Shown here: one piece after another, positions 31,638 to 45,821 of the stretch
Position numbering within the stretch: position 1 is the stretch's first letter
Layout of the letters: every line of letters starts with the position of its first letter
NCBI GenBank assembly: GCA_018710945.1
Contig: DVIW01000039.1
Location: 1 to 64,000 of the forward strand
Direction of reading: 5' to 3'
Source: Candidatus Aphodovivens avistercoris
GTDB lineage: Bacteria > Actinomycetota > Coriobacteriia > Coriobacteriales > Eggerthellaceae
Length of the DNA stretch: 64,000 nt
Notes under the pieces: model-generated
The model's input: the letters and a program-made list of their open reading frames with translations, nothing else
Databases searched by the model: none
Told to the model about the DNA's origin: nothing
Position numbers and translations under genes: made by a program

Positions 31638-34600
31638 ATTTCAATCCTTACAACCGTCGATAGGTATGACTTTTCGCGCCGCCTCAAAGCTCGCCAGCCG
31701 TCTTATTTCAATCCACGTTCCCCTTGCGGGGAACGACCACCGTCACAGCCTCGCACGAAACCTCGGTTGGATTTCAATCCACGTTCCCCTTGCGGGGAAC
31801 GACCCTCGACGTCGAGATAGTTCCCCGAACTGTTCACATTTCAACCCACGCTCCCCTTGCGGGGAGCGACCTCCGGCATCGAGGAGGGCGAGACGCCAAC
31901 ATTCGAATTTCAACCCACGCTCCCCTTGCGGGGAGCGACGCGCGCCGCGCTCGTCGCGGAGGTCGCCGCAGAATTTCAACCCACGCTCCCCTTGCGGGGA
32001 GCGACGGCTGCATGAAGGGCAACTCTTTAAGCCTGTTCTATTTCAACCCACGCTCCCCTTGCGGGGAGCGACTCGGCGGCGTCGATGCGGGTGCCGCCCG
32101 TCTGATTTCAACCCACGCTCCCCTTGCGGGGAGCGACCTTTCATGTCCTCTCCAATCAGTCGGTTTTTCTGGATTTCAACCCACGCTCCCCTTGCGGGGA
32201 GCGACGGCATGTGGTCGTATGCTCTCAGCAGCCCCGCCTGTATTTCAACCCACGCTCCCCTTGCGGGGAGCGACGAGAAGGCGGGGATTCAGCTCCGCCT
32301 TTAGCTTAATTTCAACCCACGCTCCCCTTGCGGGGAGCGACATCCTCGTCGTAGGGCAGAAACTTCGCGCCGAAATTTCAACCCACGCTCCCCTTGCGGG
32401 GAGCGACGGTGCACGCCGATGTAGCCGGTCGCGTCGGTCGTATTTCAACCCACGCTCCCCTTGCGGGGAGCGACAAGGCCATGAGGAAAGCTCACGGCTT
32501 GTCCCAATTTCAACCCACGCTCCCCTTGCGGGGAGCGACTTTGGGAGAGCGTCACGTTGCCGTTGGTGCTGCCGATTTCAACCCACGCTCCCCTTGCGGG
32601 GAGCGACCCATGCATGGTTATAGTATGTTGACGCGGTTAGATTTCAACCCACGCTCCCCTTGCGGGGAGCGACCCAAGTCGTCGGGCGTGGTCTCCCAGC
32701 GCACCAGCAATTTCAACCCACGCTCCCCTTGCGGGGAGCGACATCAGGATACACGCCGTCGGTCATGAGCAGGGCAAAATTTCAACCCACGCTCCCCTTG
32801 CGGGGAGCGACTGAGGGCCTTCGCGCCGGAGTCGTAGTCCGTATAATTTCAACCCACGCTCCCCTTGCGGGGAGCGACCTGTGTTTGAGCCGCCCGTTGA
32901 CGTACCCGCGTTATTTCAACCCACGCTCCCCTTGCGGGGAGCGACCGCCGCACATGGACCCGTCGAGGCGGTAGTCGGTATTTCAACCCACGCTCCCCTT
33001 GCGGGGAGCGACGACCCTCCCGACGCTCCGAATCTCCTGCGGTCGAATTTCAACCCACGCTCCCCTTGCGGGGAGCGACCGTCCTGCTCGACGGCGCGCC
33101 AGCGCCCGTGGACGTATTTCAACCCACGCTCCCCTTGCGGGGAGCGACATCTGGGAGTACGGCGTGTACATCCCCTACACCGAGATTTCAACCCACGCTC
33201 CCCTTGCGGGGAGCGACCGACGGGGCCTTGCCTTTTTCAAGCTGGACTATGATTTCAACCCACGCTCCCCTTGCGGGGAGCGACCCATCGGTGGTTCTGC
33301 CAGGTCTCCCTAGGCACATTTCAACCCACGCTCCCCTTGCGGGGAGCGACCGCAGCTCGCCAAGGCGATACCGGACGCCGTCGAGGTATTTCAACCCACG
33401 CTCCCCTTGCGGGGAGCGACTCGATCCACCCGAACGGCCGCCGCGTGGAGTGGGAATTTCAACCCACGCTCCCCTTGCGGGGAGCGACTGATGTGGGCGG
33501 TGGGATGGTGAGGGACTACGGATTTCAACCCACGCTCCCCTTGCGGGGAGCGACGCGCCGTTCGGCTACCAGTGGGACTTCGGCGTCTTATTTCAACCCA
33601 CGCTCCCCTTGCGGGGAGCGACTCGGTGGTGAGCTTGCTGACGCGCCCGGAGCAGCATTTCAACCCACGCTCCCCTTGCGGGGAGCGACCGCGCTGTTAT
33701 GCCTTTCCGCGATCCCGTGGCAATTTCAACCCACGCTCCCCTTGCGGGGAGCGACTGTGGACGCCGAGACGATGGCGTGCTTCCGCAACTTCGATTTCAA
33801 CCCACGCTCCCCTTGCGGGGAGCGACGTACCAGCCGAGCATGGTGTTCGGGTCGGTATGATTTCAACCCACGCTCCCCTTGCGGGGAGCGACATAGCACC
33901 TGGGATTGCGATCCCCGCGCCCCGTGATTTCAACCCACGCTCCCCTTGCGGGGAGCGACCGCTGTCGCTGTGCCTCGGCGGCCACGAGGTCGAGGATTTC
34001 AACCCACGCTCCCCTTGCGGGGAGCGACCACCCCGAAGTCCTGATGGAAGAGTGGGAGTACGGATTTCAACCCACGCTCCCCTTGCGGGGAGCGACGGGC
34101 CGGTTCCAGACGGGGAGGTGGACTGGCGGTATTTCAACCCACGCTCCCCTTGCGGGGAGCGACCGACATCGACGCGCTGCTCTGGCCTTACGGCGAGGAA
34201 TTTCAACCCACGCTCCCCTTGCGGGGAGCGACGAGCGGTGCACCGACCGCATGAGGCGCGTATGGGCCATTTCAACCCACGCTCCCCTTGCGGGGAGCGA
34301 CAACCCGTTCCGCGACGCCATGGGCTCGGCCTATATGATTTCAACCCACGCTCCCCTTGCGGGGAGCGACTCGACGTCGTGGGGCAGGTCTTCGGGGATC
34401 ACCCCGTCATTTCAACCCACGCTCCCCTTGCGGGGAGCGACCGCCTCCTTTGCAAGCGCGCTACTCCAATTCAGATTTCAACCCACGCTCCCCTTGCGGG
34501 GAGCGACTGCGACAACCCGAACGTGACCGATGCTGAAATATTTCAACCCACGCTCCCCTTGCGGGGAGCGACCGGACGGCAGGACAGACATTGCTAATGT

Positions 34601-36519
34601 GGTCGGATTTCAACCCACGCTCCCCTTGCGGGGAGCGACGTTAGGGAAGCGGCGAAAGAGCGAAGTGAGAGATTTCAACCCACGCTCCCCTTGCGGGGAG
34701 CGACTAAGTTGGTTACTACGCTGGCTCTTCAAGAGTCGATTTCAACCCACGCTCCCCTTGCGGGGAGCGACGCAAAGCACCGGAGCTAGCTAAACTGGCA
34801 AAGATTTCAACCCACGCTCCCCTTGCGGGGAGCGACTAAGATCAAGTACGCTCGCGATGACAAGGAGAAGATTTCAACCCACGCTCCCCTTGCGGGGAGC
34901 GACGCATTGCTTCGACCAACTGCGGAACAAAATCCTGATTTCAACCCACGCTCCCCTTGCGGGGAGCGACGTCGGTTCCAAAGCGGATTTGGACGACATG
35001 TCGATTTCAACCCACGCTCCCCTTGCGGGGAGCGACCAATTCCAGAAGATGACGAAACATCCATCTGCCTGATTTCAACCCACGCTCCCCTTGCGGGGAG
35101 CGACCCAGACAAGATCCTTAGTGCAATTGGCAATCTTGATTTCAACCCACGCTCCCCTTGCGGGGAGCGACTCGTGCTGGTGCTGTCCGTTTTCGAGGAT
35201 AGGGATTTCAACCCACGCTCCCCTTGCGGGGAGCGACGGAGGCGCGCGAGAACGTCGAGCGCATCAAGTTAATTTCAACCCACGCTCCCCTTGCGGGGAG
35301 CGACTTGGCGGTGAGGGTCGGGGGATTGCTTCTGCTGGGATTTCAACCCACGCTCCCCTTGCGGGGAGCGACGTGTACGAGGGCGATAACATGACCATCA
35401 GCCAGATTTCAACCCACGCTCCCCTTGCGGGGAGCGACCGTCGACCGGCTTGGAGAAAAGGACGCTATCGAATTTCAACCCACGCTCCCCTTGCGGGGAG
35501 CGACGAGCAGTGCTTTTGCGGCGTTGTCGCAATCGGGCTTATTTCAACCCACGCTCCCCTTGCGGGGAGCGACGCGCTGAACTGCTGGAACTGAGGATTG
35601 TACGGATTGATTTCAACCCACGCTCCCCTTGCGGGGAGCGACTCTCGCCCATCTTCGTGTCGGACGGAAGGCCCATATTTCAACCCACGCTCCCCTTGCG
35701 GGGAGCGACGCAAGGGAAACAGCCGTCTTGGCCTTTTCCATGACATTTCAACCCACGCTCCCCTTGCGGGGAGCGACATATTCACCGGGTCTTATTTGTA
35801 CTTTCGGCCTATTTCAACCCACGCTCCCCTTGCGGGGAGCGACAGAGATCGACGAGCTGAACTTCCAGATTCAGCAATTTCAACCCACGCTCCCCTTGCG
35901 GGGAGCGACGCGACGGTTCCGATCATCGAGCCGATGCCGTCGACATTTCAACCCACGCTCCCCTTGCGGGGAGCGACCGGCGAGGTCGAAATGCTGGCAG
36001 GCGTCGTCCTGAAATTTCAACCCACGCTCCCCTTGCGGGGAGCGACTGCTCCTCGTTCTCCTTTAGGTTCTGATATCCGAATTTCAACCCACGCTCCCCT
36101 TGCGGGGAGCGACGTAGATTATACCACATCGTTAAACTTTCGGTAATAATTTCAACCCACGCTCCCCTTGCGGGGAGCGACGTTGCTTGAGCCTATCGGC
36201 CTTCGCAGTCCGTTCTATTTCAACCCACGCTCCCCTTGCGGGGAGCGACAAGCCCGCCGACCAGTCGCACATCATCTTGAGCATATTTCAACCCACGCTC
36301 CCCTTGCGGGGAGCGACAACTGCTGCAAGCGTAGGTCGCGAATCCTTGTAATTTCAACCCACGCTCCCCTTGCGGGGAGCGACCGAGATCGGGATCGAGC
36401 TTGACGATTCCGGAGTTATTTCAACCCACGCTCCCCTTGCGGGGAGCGACCTACATGGACGCCATAACGGAGTTCATGCGCTCAGAATTTCAACCCACGC
36501 TCCCCTTGCGGGGAGCGAC
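31638..36519 (-). CRISPR. type I-C CRISPR array, 73 repeats by my count
   Basis: 33-bp repeats; on the minus strand each begins GTCGCTCCCCGCAAGGGG and ends AGCGTGGGTTGAAAT, with an 8-bp stem. Spacers are about 33-36 bp. Orientation is set by the 3' GTTGAAAT handle and by degeneration at the low-coordinate end, so the leader is at 36520 and the oldest spacers near 31.7 kb. The terminal unit (31638-31670) is badly decayed. The next two (31705, 31771) carry matched changes on both stem arms (CGTTCCCC / GGGGAACG) that keep the hairpin. Nearly all others are identical, consistent with a recently active array. Transcription runs in the same direction as the cas genes. Confidence 0.98.
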
Positions 36520-36678: not shown

Positions 36679-36761
36679 CAAAGGCCATGGAATCCCGAAT
36701 CGCAAAAAGCCCCGCGCGCCTCACGCTTTGTCGGCCAACAGCGCAGCTCTGTCGGCTTCCC

Positions 36762-37223
36762 CTACGCCTGAAGCGCGCCTTTGCGGGGTCTTCCGACTAA
36801 CCGCGGGCTGCTCTTCCTCGCTTCAACGCTCGCCTTCGCCACCCAAGTTCGCCTGCCGCTGCGATAGCCATCAAGCAAGCCGGCATTGAGCATCTGAGTC
36901 ACGCGACCCGCCGACACGCCCAACTCGCGCGCCGCCTGAGCAGCAGAGATCACCGGACCTTCAATGACATAAGACTCGTCCGTTTCGAAAAACACGCACA
37001 GCCGCTCACAACCCGCAGGCGCATCCTCCTTGCGGTACTCCGGCACGCTCTCGCCATGCTTCAGTCTTGATGCCACCCATGTTTTGGCGGCATCCGCAGC
37101 CATCATCGCTGCTTCGCGGTAATCATCGCCGCAAGTGAAGCATCCGGGCAGCGTGGGAAACTCCACACTGTAGCCCCCGTTTTCTTCCGGCGTCATAATT
37201 GCGTCGAATAGGTATTTCCCCAT
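36762..37223 (-). CDS. hicB: HicB antitoxin with DNA-binding domain
   Basis: 153 aa from the ATG at 37223 (AAAGGG upstream; an in-frame GTG at 37238 is the alternative). The N-terminal half is the degenerate RNase-H-like HicB fold: DAIMTPEENGGYSVEFPTL, PGCFTCGDDYREA. The C-terminal half has a helix-turn-helix: SAAQAARELGVSAGRVTQML. The first part would bind HicA and the second the operator. It follows hicA by 26 bp on the same strand. It ends about 240 bp before the first repeat of the main CRISPR array, directly beside its leader. Confidence 0.88.
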   Translation of the reverse strand: MGKYLFDAIMTPEENGGYSVEFPTLPGCFTCGDDYREAAMMAADAAKTWVASRLKHGESVPEYRKEDAPAGCERLCVFFETDESYVIEGPVISAAQAARELGVSAGRVTQMLNAGLLDGYRSGRRTWVAKASVEARKSSPRLVGRPRKGALQA

Positions 37224-37249
37224 CGCCTGCCCTTTCACCCAGTGACGAT

Positions 37250-37438
37250 CTAAAGCCAGCCCGCCATCTTCGCTATGCTCCGGTACGTGCCCGTCGGCAG
37301 CTCCTTCTTTGAAGATGGGACGCTTACTGTTGCGCCGCCTTTGCGAAAGACCCGATGGCTCCCTTTTCCGCCCTCTTCAAGCCACCCTTCTTTCTTGAGT
37401 CGCTTGACGACTTCTCTAACTTCCTGTTCCTTGGGCAT
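37250..37438 (-). CDS. hicA: HicA mRNA interferase toxin
   Basis: 62 aa, the usual size. dsRBD-like fold with the catalytic histidine His28 in GGKGSHRVF, then VSVPSSKKELPTGTYRSIAKMAG, split here as VSVPSSKKELP and GTYRSIAKMAG, matching the HicA consensus. HicA cleaves mRNA independently of ribosomes and is neutralised by HicB. The toxin precedes the antitoxin, the common order. It has its own promoter at 37466-37494. It lies between a decayed CRISPR array and the leader of the active one, an unusual position. Confidence 0.9.
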   Translation of the reverse strand: MPKEQEVREVVKRLKKEGWLEEGGKGSHRVFRKGGATVSVPSSKKELPTGTYRSIAKMAGWL

Positions 37439-37465
37439 CGGGTCTGCTTCCCTTCTGATGAAATA

Positions 37466-37494
37466 AATATAAAGTATTTAGTAATACAAGGCAA
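37466..37494 (-). promoter_or_regulatory. hicAB promoter
   Basis: On the minus strand TTGCCT (37489-37494) and TATATT (37466-37471) are separated by 17 bp in a locally AT-rich stretch. A HicB operator would be expected here, but I cannot define a clean palindrome. Confidence 0.7.
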
Positions 37495-37545: not shown

Positions 37546-37711
37546 ACTGTCCAGCCTCGTGCCTTTTGGGGAGAGCACTGCCGTCTTGGGTATACTAGGG
37601 CCTTGGACGACGACTCCAATCCCCACCCCCTTACGGGAGCGACTCGGCGACATGCGAGCAGCCAGCCTTCGCCCAAGGATTCCAACCCACGCTCCCCATG
37701 CAGGAAGCGAC
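37546..37711 (-). CRISPR. decayed three-repeat CRISPR array with its own leader
   Basis: Three degenerate repeats in the orientation of the main array: 37679-37711 (29 of 33 bases match the consensus), 37613-37643 (31 bases, recognisable ends and CCCCTTACGGGAGCGAC core) and 37546-37578 (weak; CCTTTTGGGGAGAGCAC). They are separated by spacer-length gaps of 35 and 34 bp, and the starts are 66-67 bp apart as in the main array. In the best unit the stem is kept with one G-T wobble. Decay increases away from the leader, as in natural arrays. Confidence 0.75.
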
Positions 37712-37872
37712 TGCAACATATCGTATTCAAGACACGAAAAGTACTTCATGCGGAACACCCATCAAGCGATTCGCTTCAGGAAGGGAAAAGAAGACGAAAA
37801 CACCGCCCCTCACGCAACCCGTATTTCGGTGCGAGCCCCGCTCACGCCCAAAGATCGCTCCGCGTTCGCACC
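37712..37872 (-). promoter_or_regulatory. paralogous CRISPR leader of the decayed array
   Basis: The bases next to the repeat, TGCAACATATCGTATTC, match the main leader CGCAATATATTGTATCC at most positions. The block 37824-37872 is 37/49 identical to 36630-36678 and lies 113 bp from its repeat against 111 bp in the main leader, with the same inverted arms GGTGCGA / TCGCACC. This shows duplication of a leader-repeat unit. Confidence 0.75.
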
Positions 37873-37906
37873 GCACCAACGCGACGCGACCAACGTTCCC
37901 CAAAAA

Positions 37907-38197
37907 TCAAAGCGCCAGAAAACCCTCGGCGTCATACGACGGCTTCGCTCCATGGTGCTCTACCTTGTTCTCATACGAATTCCCAAGGTTGTAGAACCGG
38001 ATGCTGTCCTTCTCCAAATCGATCAGCTGCACCAAATCATGCTTGATCCTGGCCATCGTCGAAGCATCGGCAACGCACTCGAAAACGGAATGCTGAACCC
38101 GCTGCCCGTAATCCACGCAGTACTTCGCCACCTTGCGAAGACGCCGCCTTCCCGCAGGGGTTTCGGTGTTCACATCGTAGACGATCACCATAAGCAT
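37907..38197 (-). CDS. cas2: CRISPR-associated endonuclease Cas2
   Basis: 96 aa. Adaptation protein that bridges two Cas1 dimers during spacer integration. Ferredoxin-like fold starting MLMVIVYDVNTETPAG, with the conserved Asp8, then RVQHSVFEC. AGGAAAG precedes the ATG, which lies 6 bp after the cas1 stop. Last cas gene of the cas5-cas2 operon; the decayed leader follows immediately. Confidence 0.95.
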   Translation of the reverse strand: MLMVIVYDVNTETPAGRRRLRKVAKYCVDYGQRVQHSVFECVADASTMARIKHDLVQLIDLEKDSIRFYNLGNSYENKVEHHGAKPSYDAEGFLAL

Positions 38198-38203
38198 GCT
38201 TTC

Positions 38204-39235
38204 CTACTTCCACAAAAACGGAGGGTAACCATCCAGATCCCCTCGAATGCATTTCGCAAGAAGACGCGCTTGAATATGAGGAACCAACCCGCGCGGCATC
38301 TTCTCTTTGATGAAGGGGTGGACGATGGGCTCTTTCTTCCGATCCTGCCAAAACCCAAACAGCGCCTTTCTGCCCTCGTCGGAAATGCGCACCTCGCCCG
38401 TTTCCCTTGTGACGAAATGGGAGGGCTTCGCGATGCGGTTGTTGATGGCGGACAAAACGAAGCGGTCGACGAACACCGAGCGCAGCTCTTCCATGAGGTC
38501 AAGCGCAAGGGATTGGCGCCCCGGCCTGTCGGCATGAAGAAGCCCGACATACGAATCCAGGCCAACCCCTTCCAGCGCGGAAGCGCAATCGCGCGACAAA
38601 ACCGTGTAGAACAGCGAAAGCATCGCGTTGACGGGATCGGTCGGCGGTCTCCGCACGCGGCCGCCGAACCCGAACGCCTCCTTGTCTCGCAAGATAAGCT
38701 CGCCGAACACCCCGAAGTACTCCGCTGCCGCATCGCCTTCGATCCCCCTGAGGGTTTCCAAAGATCCGCACGTCCGCGCATGGTCGATGGACGCCTTGAT
38801 CTTCCCGGATGCATCGGACACGGCCTGCACGTCTATCCTCAAGGAATGGTCCCTGATCGCGCGCTCGAGCACCCAGCGACTGTTGAACAGCTTGCCGACG
38901 ATGAAGTTCCTTGCGATGGCCAAGCTCTTCTCCTCGCTGTTGGACGCCTCGTACTGGGCCTTTCTCAACAGCACGTTTCCCTTCGATTCGCCGCACGCCG
39001 CCGCCAGAAACCTCCCTTTTCGGTCGAAGAAATTCAAGGCCACCCCGCACTCGACGCATTTGCCCATAAGCGCAGGGCTTGCCCCCCTGTACGAGAAGCT
39101 GGCAATAGACTCAAGGGTGTGCAGGGGGATGCGCCCTATCTCCTTCCCTTCAGCCTTGACGACGACGTTTTCCCCATCGAGAGCCAGATACGCGTTCTCG
39201 GTGAAAACGTAAAGGGTGTTCAGCAAACGCCTCAT
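38204..39235 (-). CDS. cas1: CRISPR-associated integrase Cas1 (subtype I-C)
   Basis: 343 aa. Metal-dependent integrase that inserts new spacers at the leader-proximal repeat. An N-terminal beta domain is followed by an alpha domain with the catalytic Glu166 in IEGDAAAEYF, His234 in LLHADRPGRQ and the acidic cluster LALDLMEE (about 243-250). All three metal-ligand positions are present, so it should be active. Its ATG overlaps the cas4 stop by 4 bp (ATGA), implying coupled translation. Confidence 0.96.
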   Translation of the reverse strand: MRRLLNTLYVFTENAYLALDGENVVVKAEGKEIGRIPLHTLESIASFSYRGASPALMGKCVECGVALNFFDRKGRFLAAACGESKGNVLLRKAQYEASNSEEKSLAIARNFIVGKLFNSRWVLERAIRDHSLRIDVQAVSDASGKIKASIDHARTCGSLETLRGIEGDAAAEYFGVFGELILRDKEAFGFGGRVRRPPTDPVNAMLSLFYTVLSRDCASALEGVGLDSYVGLLHADRPGRQSLALDLMEELRSVFVDRFVLSAINNRIAKPSHFVTRETGEVRISDEGRKALFGFWQDRKKEPIVHPFIKEKMPRGLVPHIQARLLAKCIRGDLDGYPPFLWK

Positions 39236-39915
39236 GACAACCCACCCTCCCCTTCGCGCAGCATCGCGTCGATGTACGCATCAACCGGTTTCCCCCGCTC
39301 GGAAGAAGAGACTTTGGGCATGCACAGCTCCAGCAGAGAACACGACCGGCACCTCTTCCCGTACTTCACCTTGGGAACGTGGCGGCGCACGTACAGCTCG
39401 TGCATTTCAGAGCAGGCAAGCTCCACCTTCCGCCGCATTTCGTCATCGAACGAAACCGGCTCCCGCCGCTTCGCGCTCCCGTAGTACAGGAACCCTTCCT
39501 GGATGTCGCACCCCAGCATTTCCTCCAAGCAGATGGCCTGCGCGCACAGCTGGAGCTTGTCCGCGTCGAAGTCTTTGGGACGCCCTCTCTTGTACTCGAC
39601 GGGAACGACTCGCCACAAGCCCTCTTCCCCGAAAAGGCTGATTCCCTGTTCGTCGGCGCGGAACTCAACGACATCGCACTGCCCCGCAACGCCCAGCCGA
39701 CGGGAATGGACGCGCAGTCCGCGGACGACCAGCACATCGCCACGGCGCTCCCGCAGCTCCTCGTCGTGGGCGCGCTCGTGAGACAAAGCGCCCAACGTTG
39801 TCAGCAGATTCTCCTGCCACTCCTGCTCAAGATGAATCAACGCCCACTGGCGGCGGCAGAACGCGAAATGCTGGATTCCCGATAACGCCAGATGATCTTG
39901 CTCTTCGTATCCCAC
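39232..39915 (-). CDS. cas4: CRISPR-associated exonuclease Cas4
   Basis: 227 aa. RecB-like nuclease with an iron-sulfur cluster that trims prespacers and selects PAM-bearing ends. N-terminal SGIQHFAFCRRQWALIHLE holds the first cluster Cys; GQCDVVEF and VPVEYKRG supply the D and ExK nuclease residues; the C-terminal CRSCSLLELC gives the other three Cys. Complete for a I-C Cas4. It lies 45 bp after cas7 and overlaps cas1 by 4 bp. Confidence 0.95.
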   Translation of the reverse strand: MGYEEQDHLALSGIQHFAFCRRQWALIHLEQEWQENLLTTLGALSHERAHDEELRERRGDVLVVRGLRVHSRRLGVAGQCDVVEFRADEQGISLFGEEGLWRVVPVEYKRGRPKDFDADKLQLCAQAICLEEMLGCDIQEGFLYYGSAKRREPVSFDDEMRRKVELACSEMHELYVRRHVPKVKYGKRCRSCSLLELCMPKVSSSERGKPVDAYIDAMLREGEGGLS

Positions 39916-39960: not shown

Positions 39961-40869
39961 CTACTTCAGCAAGTACTTGACCTCGACGCCCGCGGGAATC
40001 GCCGACTCGTCAACAACGATGTCCCCGTAGTCGGAGAAGGAGCGGGGGGCAACGACGCCTTCACGCTTGGAAACGCTCACCGCGTCGAAAAGCTTGTGCG
40101 CCGGGGCGCATCCAAGCTCGCTGTCGTGCTTGAACACGATCAGCGCACGCGTCGCCATCTTCCCGCGCGCGGCGGAGCGGTCGTTCTCGAACATGTTGAT
40201 GATGGCACTCCACAGCAGTTCGAGGTCGTCGTCGGAAAAGCCCGTCGTCTTCCGGGCAAGGTTGGCGGAAACGAAGCCCTCGCAGCGGTACAGCGCGTAA
40301 GGAACGATGTACTTGCGTCCCATCTCGGTGGTCTTCTTCTCCGCGTCGGCCTCGGTGGTGATGGAAACGCGCGTGATGGTGACCTCCTTGGCGATCACGG
40401 GATCGACGCTTCGGGCGAACGCCAGCTGGACCGGCCCGCGAACCTGGCCGCAGTTGAGGTTGTTCTTGACGAACGTCGTCATGACCGCGCCGAACGTGCG
40501 GACGTCGTAGAACGTCTGGCACATGAAATCGCGCAGCTTCACGTCAAGCGCCGGATCGTCCTTTTTGAGCTTCTTGATCTCGGCAGGACCGACGCCCGGG
40601 TCGATCCCCAGCTCTGCGAAAGCGCGTCCGTCGCTCGTGTTCAGCGGCACGCCGTCTTTGATGTAGATCTCGAACCCCGGATCCCCTTCCTTCACCGTCT
40701 CAACGTAGTTCCGGATCTTGCGCTTCAGGCACACGTCCGTCACGATTCCGTGGGAAGTCTCCGTGTCCACGCGAGGCATGTTGCCCGCATCGGGGTCGCC
40801 GTTGGGGTTTCCGTTCTCGACATCGAAGTACACGACGAAGTCATAGCGGTTTTTGATCGGTTCGGCCAT
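39961..40869 (-). CDS. cas7: Cascade backbone subunit Cas7 (Csd2)
   Basis: 302 aa. Multiple copies line the crRNA in the I-C effector complex. The N-terminus IKNRYDFVVYFDVENGNPNGDPD is the Csd2 hallmark (in two parts: RYDFVVYFDVE, NGNPNGDPDAG), and FYDVRTFGAVM plus GPVQLAFARSVDPV are the family's central motifs. The start lies 11 bp after the cas8c stop. Its RNA-binding thumb flips out every sixth base of the guide, which bears on the self-targeting guide at 43530. Confidence 0.96.
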   Translation of the reverse strand: MAEPIKNRYDFVVYFDVENGNPNGDPDAGNMPRVDTETSHGIVTDVCLKRKIRNYVETVKEGDPGFEIYIKDGVPLNTSDGRAFAELGIDPGVGPAEIKKLKKDDPALDVKLRDFMCQTFYDVRTFGAVMTTFVKNNLNCGQVRGPVQLAFARSVDPVIAKEVTITRVSITTEADAEKKTTEMGRKYIVPYALYRCEGFVSANLARKTTGFSDDDLELLWSAIINMFENDRSAARGKMATRALIVFKHDSELGCAPAHKLFDAVSVSKREGVVAPRSFSDYGDIVVDESAIPAGVEVKYLLK

Positions 40870-40880
40870 GGTTGCATCTC

Positions 40881-43363
<2,483 letters not shown>

Positions 43364-43412
43364 TCAATGTCCTTGCGCGAACCGGAGGTAACTCTTTCTC
43401 CGTCGCGCAAGT

Positions 43413-43450
43413 GCATCATAGCATCTATTATTAACAAAACAAGACATGAA
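43413..43450 (-). promoter_or_regulatory. cas5-cas2 operon promoter overlapping a self-protospacer
   Basis: On the minus strand TTGTTT (43437-43442) and TATGAT (43415-43420) are separated by 16 bp. The -35 lies inside a protospacer-like sequence that starts at 43447, ATGTCTTGTTTTGTT, preceded by the canonical I-C PAM TTC (43450-43448). It matches the guide at 43530-43544 except at positions 6 and 12. Cascade bound here would cover both promoter boxes. Confidence 0.8.
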
Positions 43451-43460
43451 ATATTGTTCT

Positions 43461-43491
43461 TTGCCTGAAGGGAAGCCGAAGAGCTTATAAT
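43461..43491 (+). promoter_or_regulatory. promoter of the self-targeting guide RNA
   Basis: A consensus TATAAT (43486-43491) lies 7 bp before the repeat-like hairpin, so transcription would begin at or next to its first base (about 43498-43499). TTGCCT (43461-43466) is a possible -35 but with a long 19-bp spacing. It is back-to-back with the cas5 promoter. Confidence 0.7.
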
Positions 43492-43498
43492 CCGATGT

Positions 43499-43573
43499 GT
43501 CGCTTTCTGCGGAAAGCGCGGGTTGAAATATGTCCTGTTTCGTTCTGTCACCAAGGCCCCCTGCACGGGGGCC
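43499..43573 (+). ncRNA. CreR-like self-targeting guide RNA (candidate)
   Basis: Bases 43499-43529 form a single stand-alone CRISPR-repeat homologue on the strand opposite the main array. It keeps GTCGCT at the 5' end and the full GGGTTGAAAT 3' handle. The stem bases have changed on both arms (CGCTTTC / GAAAGCG) and still pair perfectly over 7 bp. The following bases, ATGTCCTGTTTCGTT (43530-43544), match the cas5 promoter at 13/15 positions next to a TTC PAM. The RNA appears to end in a GGCCCCC / GGGGGCC hairpin (43555-43573) instead of a second repeat. Cas5 cutting would give a handle identical to that of normal crRNA. Expression is inferred, not shown. Confidence 0.75.
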
Positions 43574-43580
43574 CGGCAGA

Positions 43581-45821
43581 TCAGAGGAAGATCCCCTTCC
43601 CCTCTTCTATCTTCCCGACATCCAAGCCGACTTCTTCTGAATACAGCGTCGAATCGCGCAGCACGTAGACGCCGCCGTTAACCGGCTCGACCGCGCCCGC
43701 TGCAAGCAGCGCCTTAAGGTCGTGCTCGTACACCCCCACCGAATAGCGCGCGAGGCGGCGCATCGCCGCACGGTCGGCGAACCCGCCCACAAGGGCCTCA
43801 ACGTCGTCAAAGGGAGCGTGAGCGGCAACGATCACCGTGTACGACGGATCGTCGATAATGGAAAACGCCTCGGCGATATCCTCGAAGGGGATGGAGCGAA
43901 TCCAAAGCGAGCAGTCCGCATCTTTGACGACGGGAGCCTTGCAGCACATCGCGTAGACGCCCTTCGCGTCAAGCTCTTCGCGGCGGATGTGGTGAAGCCG
44001 CCTGAAATAGCTCTCGATGACGCCAAGATCGCCAATCGGAACGCCCTTTTCCGGATCTTCCGCAACGCCATGCAGAACCAAGCCCGCCATCGTTTGCTTC
44101 TGGTCAACATCGCGCGGAATCCGAAGGGGCTCCAACGGACGGAACACGAAAACCTCTCCCTTCCCTATCATCAGCCCCTCCCTGTTGCAGCGTCCCGCCG
44201 CTTGGACGACGGAATCGATGCCGGCCAAAGCGCGGTACACCACGGGGAAATCGAGGTTCACGCCCGCCTCCACCAAGCTCGTCGCCACCACGCAGCACGG
44301 AACGCCTGCGGCAAGCCGGTCGCGAATCTCGGCGAGGATGCGCTCGCGATGGGCGGGGTGCATGGAGGTGGTCAGGTGGAACGACCCGTCCTGATGCTTG
44401 ATGAGGTCGTACAGCCTGCGCGCCTGCCGCCTGCTGTTGACGACGCACAGCGACCGGCCTGCCTCGCCGAGCCGCAAAGCAAGGTCGTCGTCGCTCAAGC
44501 TGCCCGAATCCCGATACACCACCCGCTCAAGCGAGTCGAAAAGCTCTTGGGGATCAGGGACGATCTCGCGGACGCTGCATCCGAACCGCTCGAACAGCGC
44601 ATCGAGGGACGGCTGCGTCGCGGTGCAGAGCACGACCGAGCATCCGTAGTTCCTCACCAGCTCGACCAGAGCGCGGACGCACGGAACCAGCTGGGCGGTC
44701 GGGATCATCTGGGCCTCGTCGAGCACGATCACGCTTCCCGCAATGTTGTGCAGCTTGCGGCAGCGGGAGGCCTTGTTCGCGAACAGCGACTCGAACAGCT
44801 GCACGTTGGTCGTGACGACCACGGGAGCCTCCCAGTTTTCAGAGGCCAACCGCAAACGGTCGCCAAGCTCCCCTTCGTCATCGAAATCGAAGTTGGCATG
44901 GTGCTCCAGCACGTTCTCCGCGCCAAGCACCTGGCGGAACTCACGCGCATTCTGATCGATGATCGACGTGTAGGGAATCGCGTAGATGACCCGCCGCATG
45001 CCGTCATGCGCCACCGCGTGGCTGAGGGCGAAGCGCAGCGACGCGAACGTCTTCCCTCCCCCCGTCGGCACGGTAAGCGAGAACACGCCCGGCTCCCACG
45101 ACCCAGCCTCCTGGCACGCGTCGAGCACGCCGCATCGTTTCTTGTTGAGCGATGTGCGGGGAGGGTAGAAGCCCGCCAGCTTCTTCTCCAGCTTCTCGCA
45201 CAAGGTCGGGATGCTGTCGCAGGCAAGACGCGCCCGTTCGCCCGCCATGAAGCGCTCGGTGCAAAGGTAGTCCGCATCGACCAGACACGAATACAGCATC
45301 CGAATGAAGAACTGCAAGGAGAACCACACCGAATCGGGATCCCGCTCGTCAGAATCTATGCGCGGCGGTTCGGCGCCTTTTATCAAGCTGTCCAGGTCCA
45401 CCTCGCTCCGAAACGCCTCGTATTTCGGAATGCGCTTGCGCGCGGCGCTCCTCAAGCGGGCGAACAGCGTGCCTCCTTCCACGTCAGAGGCCGCACTTCC
45501 CCCGTTGGGAAGCCCGCCGTGATGCCCGGCAATGCAGTACGCGATCTGGTGCGCCCCGGCAACGCCAAGCTCGAACGCACCCGCCGTGGAATGGTCCACC
45601 TTCCCCGCACCGTGGAGGATGCGATCCTGGAACTCCTCCGAGTATTTCCCGATGTCATGCGCCAGGCCGGCCAAAGCCGCCCAGTCCTCGCCGCCGAACG
45701 GACGGGCGAACTCAGCCGCCATCTGGGAAACCTCGTTGAGGTGGTCTCTAACGGCCTCGTATTGCCCGTCGTCCGAAGCATGGGACACGTATCGGGGAAT
45801 GCGGGATTGGGAGGAATCCAT
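43581..45821 (-). CDS. cas3: CRISPR-associated helicase-nuclease Cas3
   Basis: 746 aa. Recruited by Cascade to nick and degrade target DNA. N-terminal HD nuclease: DHLNEVSQMA, LAHDIGKYSEEF, HSTAGAFE, AGHHGG. SF2 helicase: Walker A VPTGGGKT, DEAQ in motif II, CTATQP (motif III), VATSLVEAGVNLD (motif V) and QAAGRCNREG (motif VI). No signs of decay. AAGGAGG sits 6 bp before the ATG. The gene is separated from cas5 by 250 bp containing two promoters, so its expression is independent of the cas5 operon and of the self-targeting guide. Confidence 0.96.
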   Translation of the reverse strand: MDSSQSRIPRYVSHASDDGQYEAVRDHLNEVSQMAAEFARPFGGEDWAALAGLAHDIGKYSEEFQDRILHGAGKVDHSTAGAFELGVAGAHQIAYCIAGHHGGLPNGGSAASDVEGGTLFARLRSAARKRIPKYEAFRSEVDLDSLIKGAEPPRIDSDERDPDSVWFSLQFFIRMLYSCLVDADYLCTERFMAGERARLACDSIPTLCEKLEKKLAGFYPPRTSLNKKRCGVLDACQEAGSWEPGVFSLTVPTGGGKTFASLRFALSHAVAHDGMRRVIYAIPYTSIIDQNAREFRQVLGAENVLEHHANFDFDDEGELGDRLRLASENWEAPVVVTTNVQLFESLFANKASRCRKLHNIAGSVIVLDEAQMIPTAQLVPCVRALVELVRNYGCSVVLCTATQPSLDALFERFGCSVREIVPDPQELFDSLERVVYRDSGSLSDDDLALRLGEAGRSLCVVNSRRQARRLYDLIKHQDGSFHLTTSMHPAHRERILAEIRDRLAAGVPCCVVATSLVEAGVNLDFPVVYRALAGIDSVVQAAGRCNREGLMIGKGEVFVFRPLEPLRIPRDVDQKQTMAGLVLHGVAEDPEKGVPIGDLGVIESYFRRLHHIRREELDAKGVYAMCCKAPVVKDADCSLWIRSIPFEDIAEAFSIIDDPSYTVIVAAHAPFDDVEALVGGFADRAAMRRLARYSVGVYEHDLKALLAAGAVEPVNGGVYVLRDSTLYSEEVGLDVGKIEEGKGIFL

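Follow-up and report, generated by a model that had tools for sequence, protein, structure and literature searches.

Why does a single CRISPR repeat stand by itself in the cas3-cas5 gap of a complete type I-C locus, followed by bases that resemble the region upstream of cas5? The question arises in a 64,000-nt stretch of the Candidatus Aphodovivens avistercoris genome (contig DVIW01000039.1, positions 1 to 64,000), the whole of which we refer to as the window. Type I-C ranks with the most widespread CRISPR subtypes. Our analysis indicates that the lone repeat very probably belongs to a CreR-type RNA, through which the I-C Cascade would repress its own operon.

The type I-C locus of the window

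The cas5c gene (42665..43330, minus strand; NCBIfam TIGR01876, E 1.2e-49) is the first gene of the operon below the targeted region. On the same strand, it is followed by cas8c (40881..42668; NCBIfam TIGR01863, E 1.2e-123), whose start overlaps the cas5 stop, cas7 (39961..40869; NCBIfam TIGR02589), cas4 (39232..39915; NCBIfam TIGR00372), cas1c (38204..39235; NCBIfam TIGR03640), and cas2 (37907..38197; Pfam PF09827, E 1.9e-23). The cas3 gene (43581..45821, minus strand), recognized by NCBIfam cas3 core and HD models, lies upstream of the targeted promoter, and the cas3-cas5 gap measures 250 nt. The family models for Cas5c, Cas8c, Cas7 (Csd2), and Cas1c confirm the type I-C assignment that was made in the initial annotation. 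The operon has no cas6, and its gene order leaves no room for one. An array with about 70 copies of the repeat GTCGCTCCCCGCAAGGGGAGCGTGGGTTGAAAT (31838..36519, minus strand) would be the source of competing crRNAs.

Other traces of repeats were found near cas2. Two I-C repeats in decay, separated by about 33 nt, lie at 37613-37711 (minus strand), a second, diverged leader-like copy lies at 37712-37880, and a HicA toxin/HicB-like antitoxin pair (Pfam PF07927, PF15919) occupies 36700-37480, between this repeat relic and the live array. The decayed repeats and HicA/HicB were considered as a second CreTA-like unit and rejected, with no TTC-flanked target of their own found near hicA; the matches found for the relic spacer resemble chance or coding sequence.

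Anatomy of the lone repeat

The lone type I-C repeat homologue, GTCGCTTTCTGCGGAAAGCGCGGGTTGAAAT, covers 31 nt of the plus strand (43499..43529). It contains a hairpin, CGCTTTC-TGCG-GAAAGCG (43501-43518), whose 7-bp stem abuts the 11-nt handle CGGGTTGAAAT (43519-43529). An exact TATAAT, the putative -10 of the free-standing repeat RNA, precedes it at 43486..43491. The initial annotation had described this TATAAT, the repeat homologue, and the intact handle, and its coordinates proved exact. The repeat stands alone beside cas genes; a search of the 2.45-Mb genome returned 1 copy of the handle outside the array vs 70 inside it.

From position 43530 on the plus strand, directly 3' of the handle, the guide reads ATGTCCTGTTTCGTT. 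The predicted start of the small RNA's guide is ATGTCCTG, and the segment ATGTCCTGTTTCGTTCT (43530..43546) matches the target at positions 1-5, 7-11, and 13-15. Further downstream, a G+C-rich hairpin, GGCCCCC-TGCAC-GGGGGCC (43555..43573), is a probable terminator common to the RNA (plus strand) and cas3 (minus strand). The fold predicted for 43499-43580 reaches -35.5 kcal/mol (z -2.4). Since this hairpin has no T-run in the window and the promoters are weak by consensus (the -35 of the lone repeat RNA is poor, and a sigma-70 consensus scan called zero promoters in 43320-43620), both the promoter and the terminator of the window's RNA stay putative.

The target upstream of cas5

The guide matches the sequence ATGTCTTGTTTTGTT (43433..43447, minus strand), which lies 117 nt upstream of the cas5 ATG and is flanked by a TTC PAM (43448..43450, minus strand). 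Guide and target agree at 13 of 15 positions, with mismatches just at 6 and 12, and pairing ends after position 15; the mismatches and the TTC are exactly those reported earlier for this site. When any guide position in the window gap was compared with any TTC site, only 1 of 7,095 pairs matched at positions 1-5 and 7-11, so the match is not due to chance. In addition, TTC followed by ATGTCNTGTTT was found once in the 2.45-Mb genome. The partial match thus involves a single TTC-flanked site upstream of cas5.

This site overlaps a putative cas5 promoter (43415..43442, minus strand), which was recognized from sequence only and lies below the threshold of the sigma-70 scan. It comprises a '-35' TTGTTT (43442-43437), a 16-nt spacer, and a '-10' TATGAT (43420-43415), and is weak by consensus. 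The guide of the window has the same sense as the cas5 mRNA.

The cas5 leader (43320-43410, minus strand) also contains a 9-bp inverted repeat, CTTGCGCGA/TCGCGCAAG, around ACCTCC, an anti-SD-like motif complementary to the ribosome-binding site of cas5. The hairpin fold of this leader was no better than that of shuffles (z -0.97).

Occurrence of the element in type I-C loci

Type I-C loci were gathered via Cas5c from the same order, a genome collection, and viral contigs. Lone handles were defined as GG[GA]TTGAAA[TC] not in an array and at most 700 nt upstream of cas5, and guides were not looked at in this step, which yielded 34 distinct lone handles in 129 loci. Relaxed searches added seven elements (L044, L048, L049, L054, L063, L091, and L123), partly found via the guide match. 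The extended table contains 36 elements.

All elements reside in cas3-cas5 gaps of at least 165 nt (36 present, 12 loci without), and none was found in the 68 shorter gaps; the gap measures 165-430 nt in most element loci. In loci without the element, cas3 and cas5 are probably co-transcribed. Among the carriers are Coriobacteriia-like relatives of the window, Lachnospiraceae, Oscillospiraceae, and Eubacterium barkeri, as well as one Veillonellales genome, one Gastranaerophilales genome, and one IMG/VR contig. Cultured bacteria with the element include Eubacterium barkeri VPI 5359 (L071), Faecalibacterium longum CLA-AA-H243 (L124), and Lachnoclostridium sp. An196 (L054). The element is absent from a second Cas5c group of the same order, which has gaps of about 50 nt, and in known I-C systems, those on D. 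vulgaris and Zymomonas plasmids, the gap is 13 and 105 nt, respectively, too small to accommodate it. In a quick Cas5c tree, 33 of 35 elements fell into one well-supported half, where their distribution is patchy, and the overall pattern takes 23 parsimony changes, at least 9 of them forced. Based on these sequence comparisons, our data suggest that such a switch is present in a large share of the I-C systems of gut Clostridia and Coriobacteriia.

Several individual loci have additional features. The 921-nt cas3-cas5 gap of L066 contains an apparent CRISPR array, and in L050 a RelB-like antitoxin ORF (Pfam PF04221) lies on the reverse strand beside the element, in a 711-nt gap. L128 (the IMG/VR contig) and L123 (the Gastranaerophilales genome) have the sole two elements whose repeat is on the cas5 strand. 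L128 is filed as viral and has cas3, cas5, cas8c, and an array, and so is either a phage-borne I-C system or a misfiled one.

Loci with a DUF3990 gene

In two Lachnospiraceae loci (L054 and L044), a DUF3990 gene and its partner lie between the targeted promoter and cas5. The pair was matched to the PADLOC candidate PDC-M10A/B, with L044 assigned by sequence resemblance. L060 retains remnants of the pair, and L074 contains the pair and no element. The L044 contig (MT836695.1) is titled 'Bacteriophage sp.', and its type I-C cas3-cas5-cas8c locus is close to that of Lachnospiraceae; it is probably a bacterial contig.

This arrangement raises the alternative that the RNA acts as a guard of the CreTA/CrePA kind, mainly repressing a toxin, in which case a cell that loses Cascade would be poisoned. 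In L044 and L054, where the targeted promoter precedes the DUF3990 gene and partner ahead of cas5, and in view of the remnants in L060, such a role can be imagined. For the element at large it is quite improbable, however, given that no credible toxin gene or toxin-like gene is found in the window gap, where a small toxic RNA is conceivable, that cas5 is the first complete gene downstream of the target, and that the gaps of 165-430 nt in most element loci are too short for a DUF3990-type pair. The RNA of L044 and L054 would place a toxin-antitoxin-like pair under the same repression as the cas genes, linking CreR and CrePA.

We also put forward, tentatively and with slightly less than even confidence, a broader evolutionary reading. 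Citing gap width (at least 165 nt with the cassette, usually shorter without), it holds that the I-C cassette of promoter, guide, and terminator may have been gained or lost repeatedly, that it may separate Cascade supply from cas3 and re-evolve its guide and target jointly in each lineage, and that some Lachnospiraceae may have placed the DUF3990/PDC-M10 pair under the same Cascade-repressed promoter. If this is true, inhibition of Cascade in DUF3990 loci would raise the toxin and the cas genes at once, and CreR and CrePA would be joined in one operon.

Guides and targets change together

To compare guides with their own loci, a match was defined as a TTC-flanked site in the cas5 upstream region of the same locus with at most one mismatch at ten informative positions (1-5 and 7-11). 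Such a match was found for 28 of the 34 lone handles, and 23 of these were perfect. When the guides were swapped between loci, 4/1122 combinations matched with one mismatch and 0/1122 perfectly. We also tried all 64 trinucleotides as the PAM in the 34 loci, and TTC accounted for 28 of the 31 matches. Chance was therefore rejected as the source of the guide-target match, since the swaps, the PAM permutation, and shuffles all speak against it. In the extended table, 35 of the 36 elements have at most one mismatch at the ten positions, with TTC as the PAM in 34 and TTT in 1. The guides themselves nearly all differ between loci, even between sister loci on the Cas5c tree (L062/L076, L023/L024, and L020/L022). 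Collectively, the match between guide and promoter is conserved in 35 loci despite turnover of the guide.

The features of the RNA recur in the relatives as well. Lone repeats have the handle in common with the repeat of their own array and hardly any of the stem sequence. Directly next to the handle, 20 of 35 elements have a stem of 5 bp or more, vs 18% of shuffles. Cas5c is the crRNA-processing enzyme in type I-C (PMC7684278), and the retention of a stem, as seen in these sequences, fits kept recognition by Cas5c. In addition, 20 of 35 elements have a -10-like hexamer (at most one mismatch) immediately 5' of the repeat, vs 25% of shuffles, and nearly all relatives have a strong hairpin 3' of the guide, near the convergent cas3 stop.

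The lone repeat could instead be a decayed relic, that is, an orphan repeat from a lost array or from recombination whose resemblance to the promoter is accidental. Its stem does differ from that of the array repeat, and decayed array copies exist in the window at 37613-37711. Set against the excess of own-locus matches over swaps, the TTC specificity, stems kept through different sequences, and the 6-nt periodicity described below, this origin is scarcely credible. A CreR-type RNA remains our preferred reading.

An R-loop footprint in the matches

Targets were chosen without the use of positions 6 and 12-24. Of the 35 guide-target pairs, 10 agree at position 6 and 6 at position 12 (chance, 25%), whereas positions 13-15 match in 27-29; the count is 23 at position 16 and 19 at position 17, and positions 18-24 are at chance. 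It had been proposed at the outset that guide and promoter would co-vary in relatives while positions 6 and 12 drift, and both the own-locus matches and the counts at these two positions bear this out. The conserved match thus shows R-loop periodicity across dozens of loci, and the pattern is that expected of Cascade pairing that spans about 17 nt and leaves every sixth base flipped out. What is generally known of Cascade is taken to hold for type I-C too. In type I-E, Cascade binds at short seed matches with no interference following, and the base at position 6 is flipped out (PMC5904413). With chance level reached beyond position 17, the match is too short for interference.

Selection for a mismatch at positions 6 and 12 was also considered and rejected, the counts of 10/35 and 6/35 being no different from 25%. 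As the guide C excess at these two positions parallels that at unpaired positions generally, neutral drift suffices. The comparison supplies about 35 natural guide-target pairs and with them an evolutionary readout of Cascade R-loop geometry, in which positions 1-5, 7-11, and 13-17 are paired and positions 6, 12, and those beyond 17 drift.

Of the 35 guides, 27 are complementary to the cas5 leader strand and 8, including that of the window, are in the mRNA sense. In about a third of the relatives, the target lies 12-24 nt before the cas5 start. The earlier proposal that the target covers the -35/-10 of cas5 stands for the window, with hexamers that are putative and weak, but does not extend to many relatives, where the target falls within the 5' leader, close to the ribosome-binding site, and not over a -35/-10. 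Since a third of the targets are so close to the start, the blocked step may differ between species.

These orientations and distances could also suggest an ordinary antisense RNA that would pair with the leader of the cas5 mRNA and affect translation independently of Cascade. We reject this as extremely improbable because the 8 guides in mRNA sense, that of the window among them, are unable to pair with the mRNA, and because neither a TTC PAM nor free drift at positions 6 and 12 would have any meaning in RNA-RNA pairing.

Proposed autorepression of the cas operon

From these features, we infer how the RNA might be transcribed and processed, how it might repress the operon, and how it might respond to crRNAs or inhibitors. 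Transcription of the RNA would start at a small promoter of its own, located where the repeat begins on its 5' side. The RNA would fold into a Cas5c-type hairpin, be cleaved by Cas5c immediately 5' of the 11-nt handle, and end at the hairpin common with cas3. Cascade loaded with this RNA would bind the TTC-flanked site by a guide match of 15-17 nt, with positions 6 and 12 flipped out; in the window, it would be held over the -35 side of the cas5 promoter. Transcription of cas5-cas8c-cas7-cas4-cas1-cas2 would thereby be blocked, with cas3 outside the regulated operon, and a match of this length would not suffice to license Cas3. In this way, Cascade would keep its own supply in check, and the operon would be less repressed whenever array crRNAs or inhibitors draw Cascade off.

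Indeed, I-C Cascade with TTC-PAM guides represses the promoters at which it is aimed (PMC10865793). In E. coli type I-E, repression by Cascade reportedly drops strongly with a few PAM-distal mismatches (discussion in PMC5904413), and by analogy a match of 15-17 nt may repress only modestly. Such switches would bear on the response of I-C systems to inhibitors and on native I-C Cascade as a tool, the latter because added guides should raise cas expression.

Comparison with known regulatory RNAs

CreR autorepression has been reported for types I-B, I-E, and V-A, the only ones for which the two reviews name it, and the I-C element is like CreR in being a crRNA-like RNA beside cas genes with a partial match to the cas promoter, the effector being reused as an autorepressor (PMC13131331, PMC12737573). 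It differs in that it occurs in a system without Cas6, has a single repeat that is presumably processed by Cas5c, and ends at a hairpin common with cas3 in the cas3-cas5 gap, where it is usually antisense. Shmakov et al. 2023 (NAR 51:8150) reportedly described standalone repeats and mini-arrays partly complementary to cas promoters, predicted mostly in type I and type V-A; two-repeat mini-arrays are reportedly common among them, whereas the I-C element has one repeat.

In CreTA/CrePA, a degenerate repeat RNA guides Cascade to a promoter by a short match (PMC9458426, PMC12737573). The I-C element resembles these systems in that respect, but its repressed unit is the cas operon, and a toxin-like pair lies under the targeted promoter in L044 and L054 alone (with remnants in L060). 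Likewise, the long-form tracrRNA represses Cas9 (Workman et al. 2021, as cited in PMC10651486); an effector programmed by a cellular RNA represses its own promoter by a short match, as would the I-C element, but this is a type II system with a tracrRNA-based single guide.

Racrs are phage-encoded solitary repeat units with their own promoters that serve as decoys for I-F and I-C, one type I-C case being included (PMC10651486), and a decoy that merely ties up Cas5c/Cas7 without guiding repression has next to no probability here, as the element sits in the cas3-cas5 gap of a complete system, neither in a prophage nor encoded by a mobile element, and its guide is under selection to match the promoter at exactly the paired positions. 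In contrast to a Racr, the I-C element would be a promoter-matching regulator within the cas locus.

Regulation of this kind is therefore already known from CreR, and I-C elements may already be listed in Liu 2023 or Shmakov 2023. To this, the present comparison adds the presence of the element in subtype I-C, a form with one repeat and a hairpin as its end, a broad distribution among gut bacteria, the turnover of its guide with R-loop periodicity, and a toxin-linked branch.
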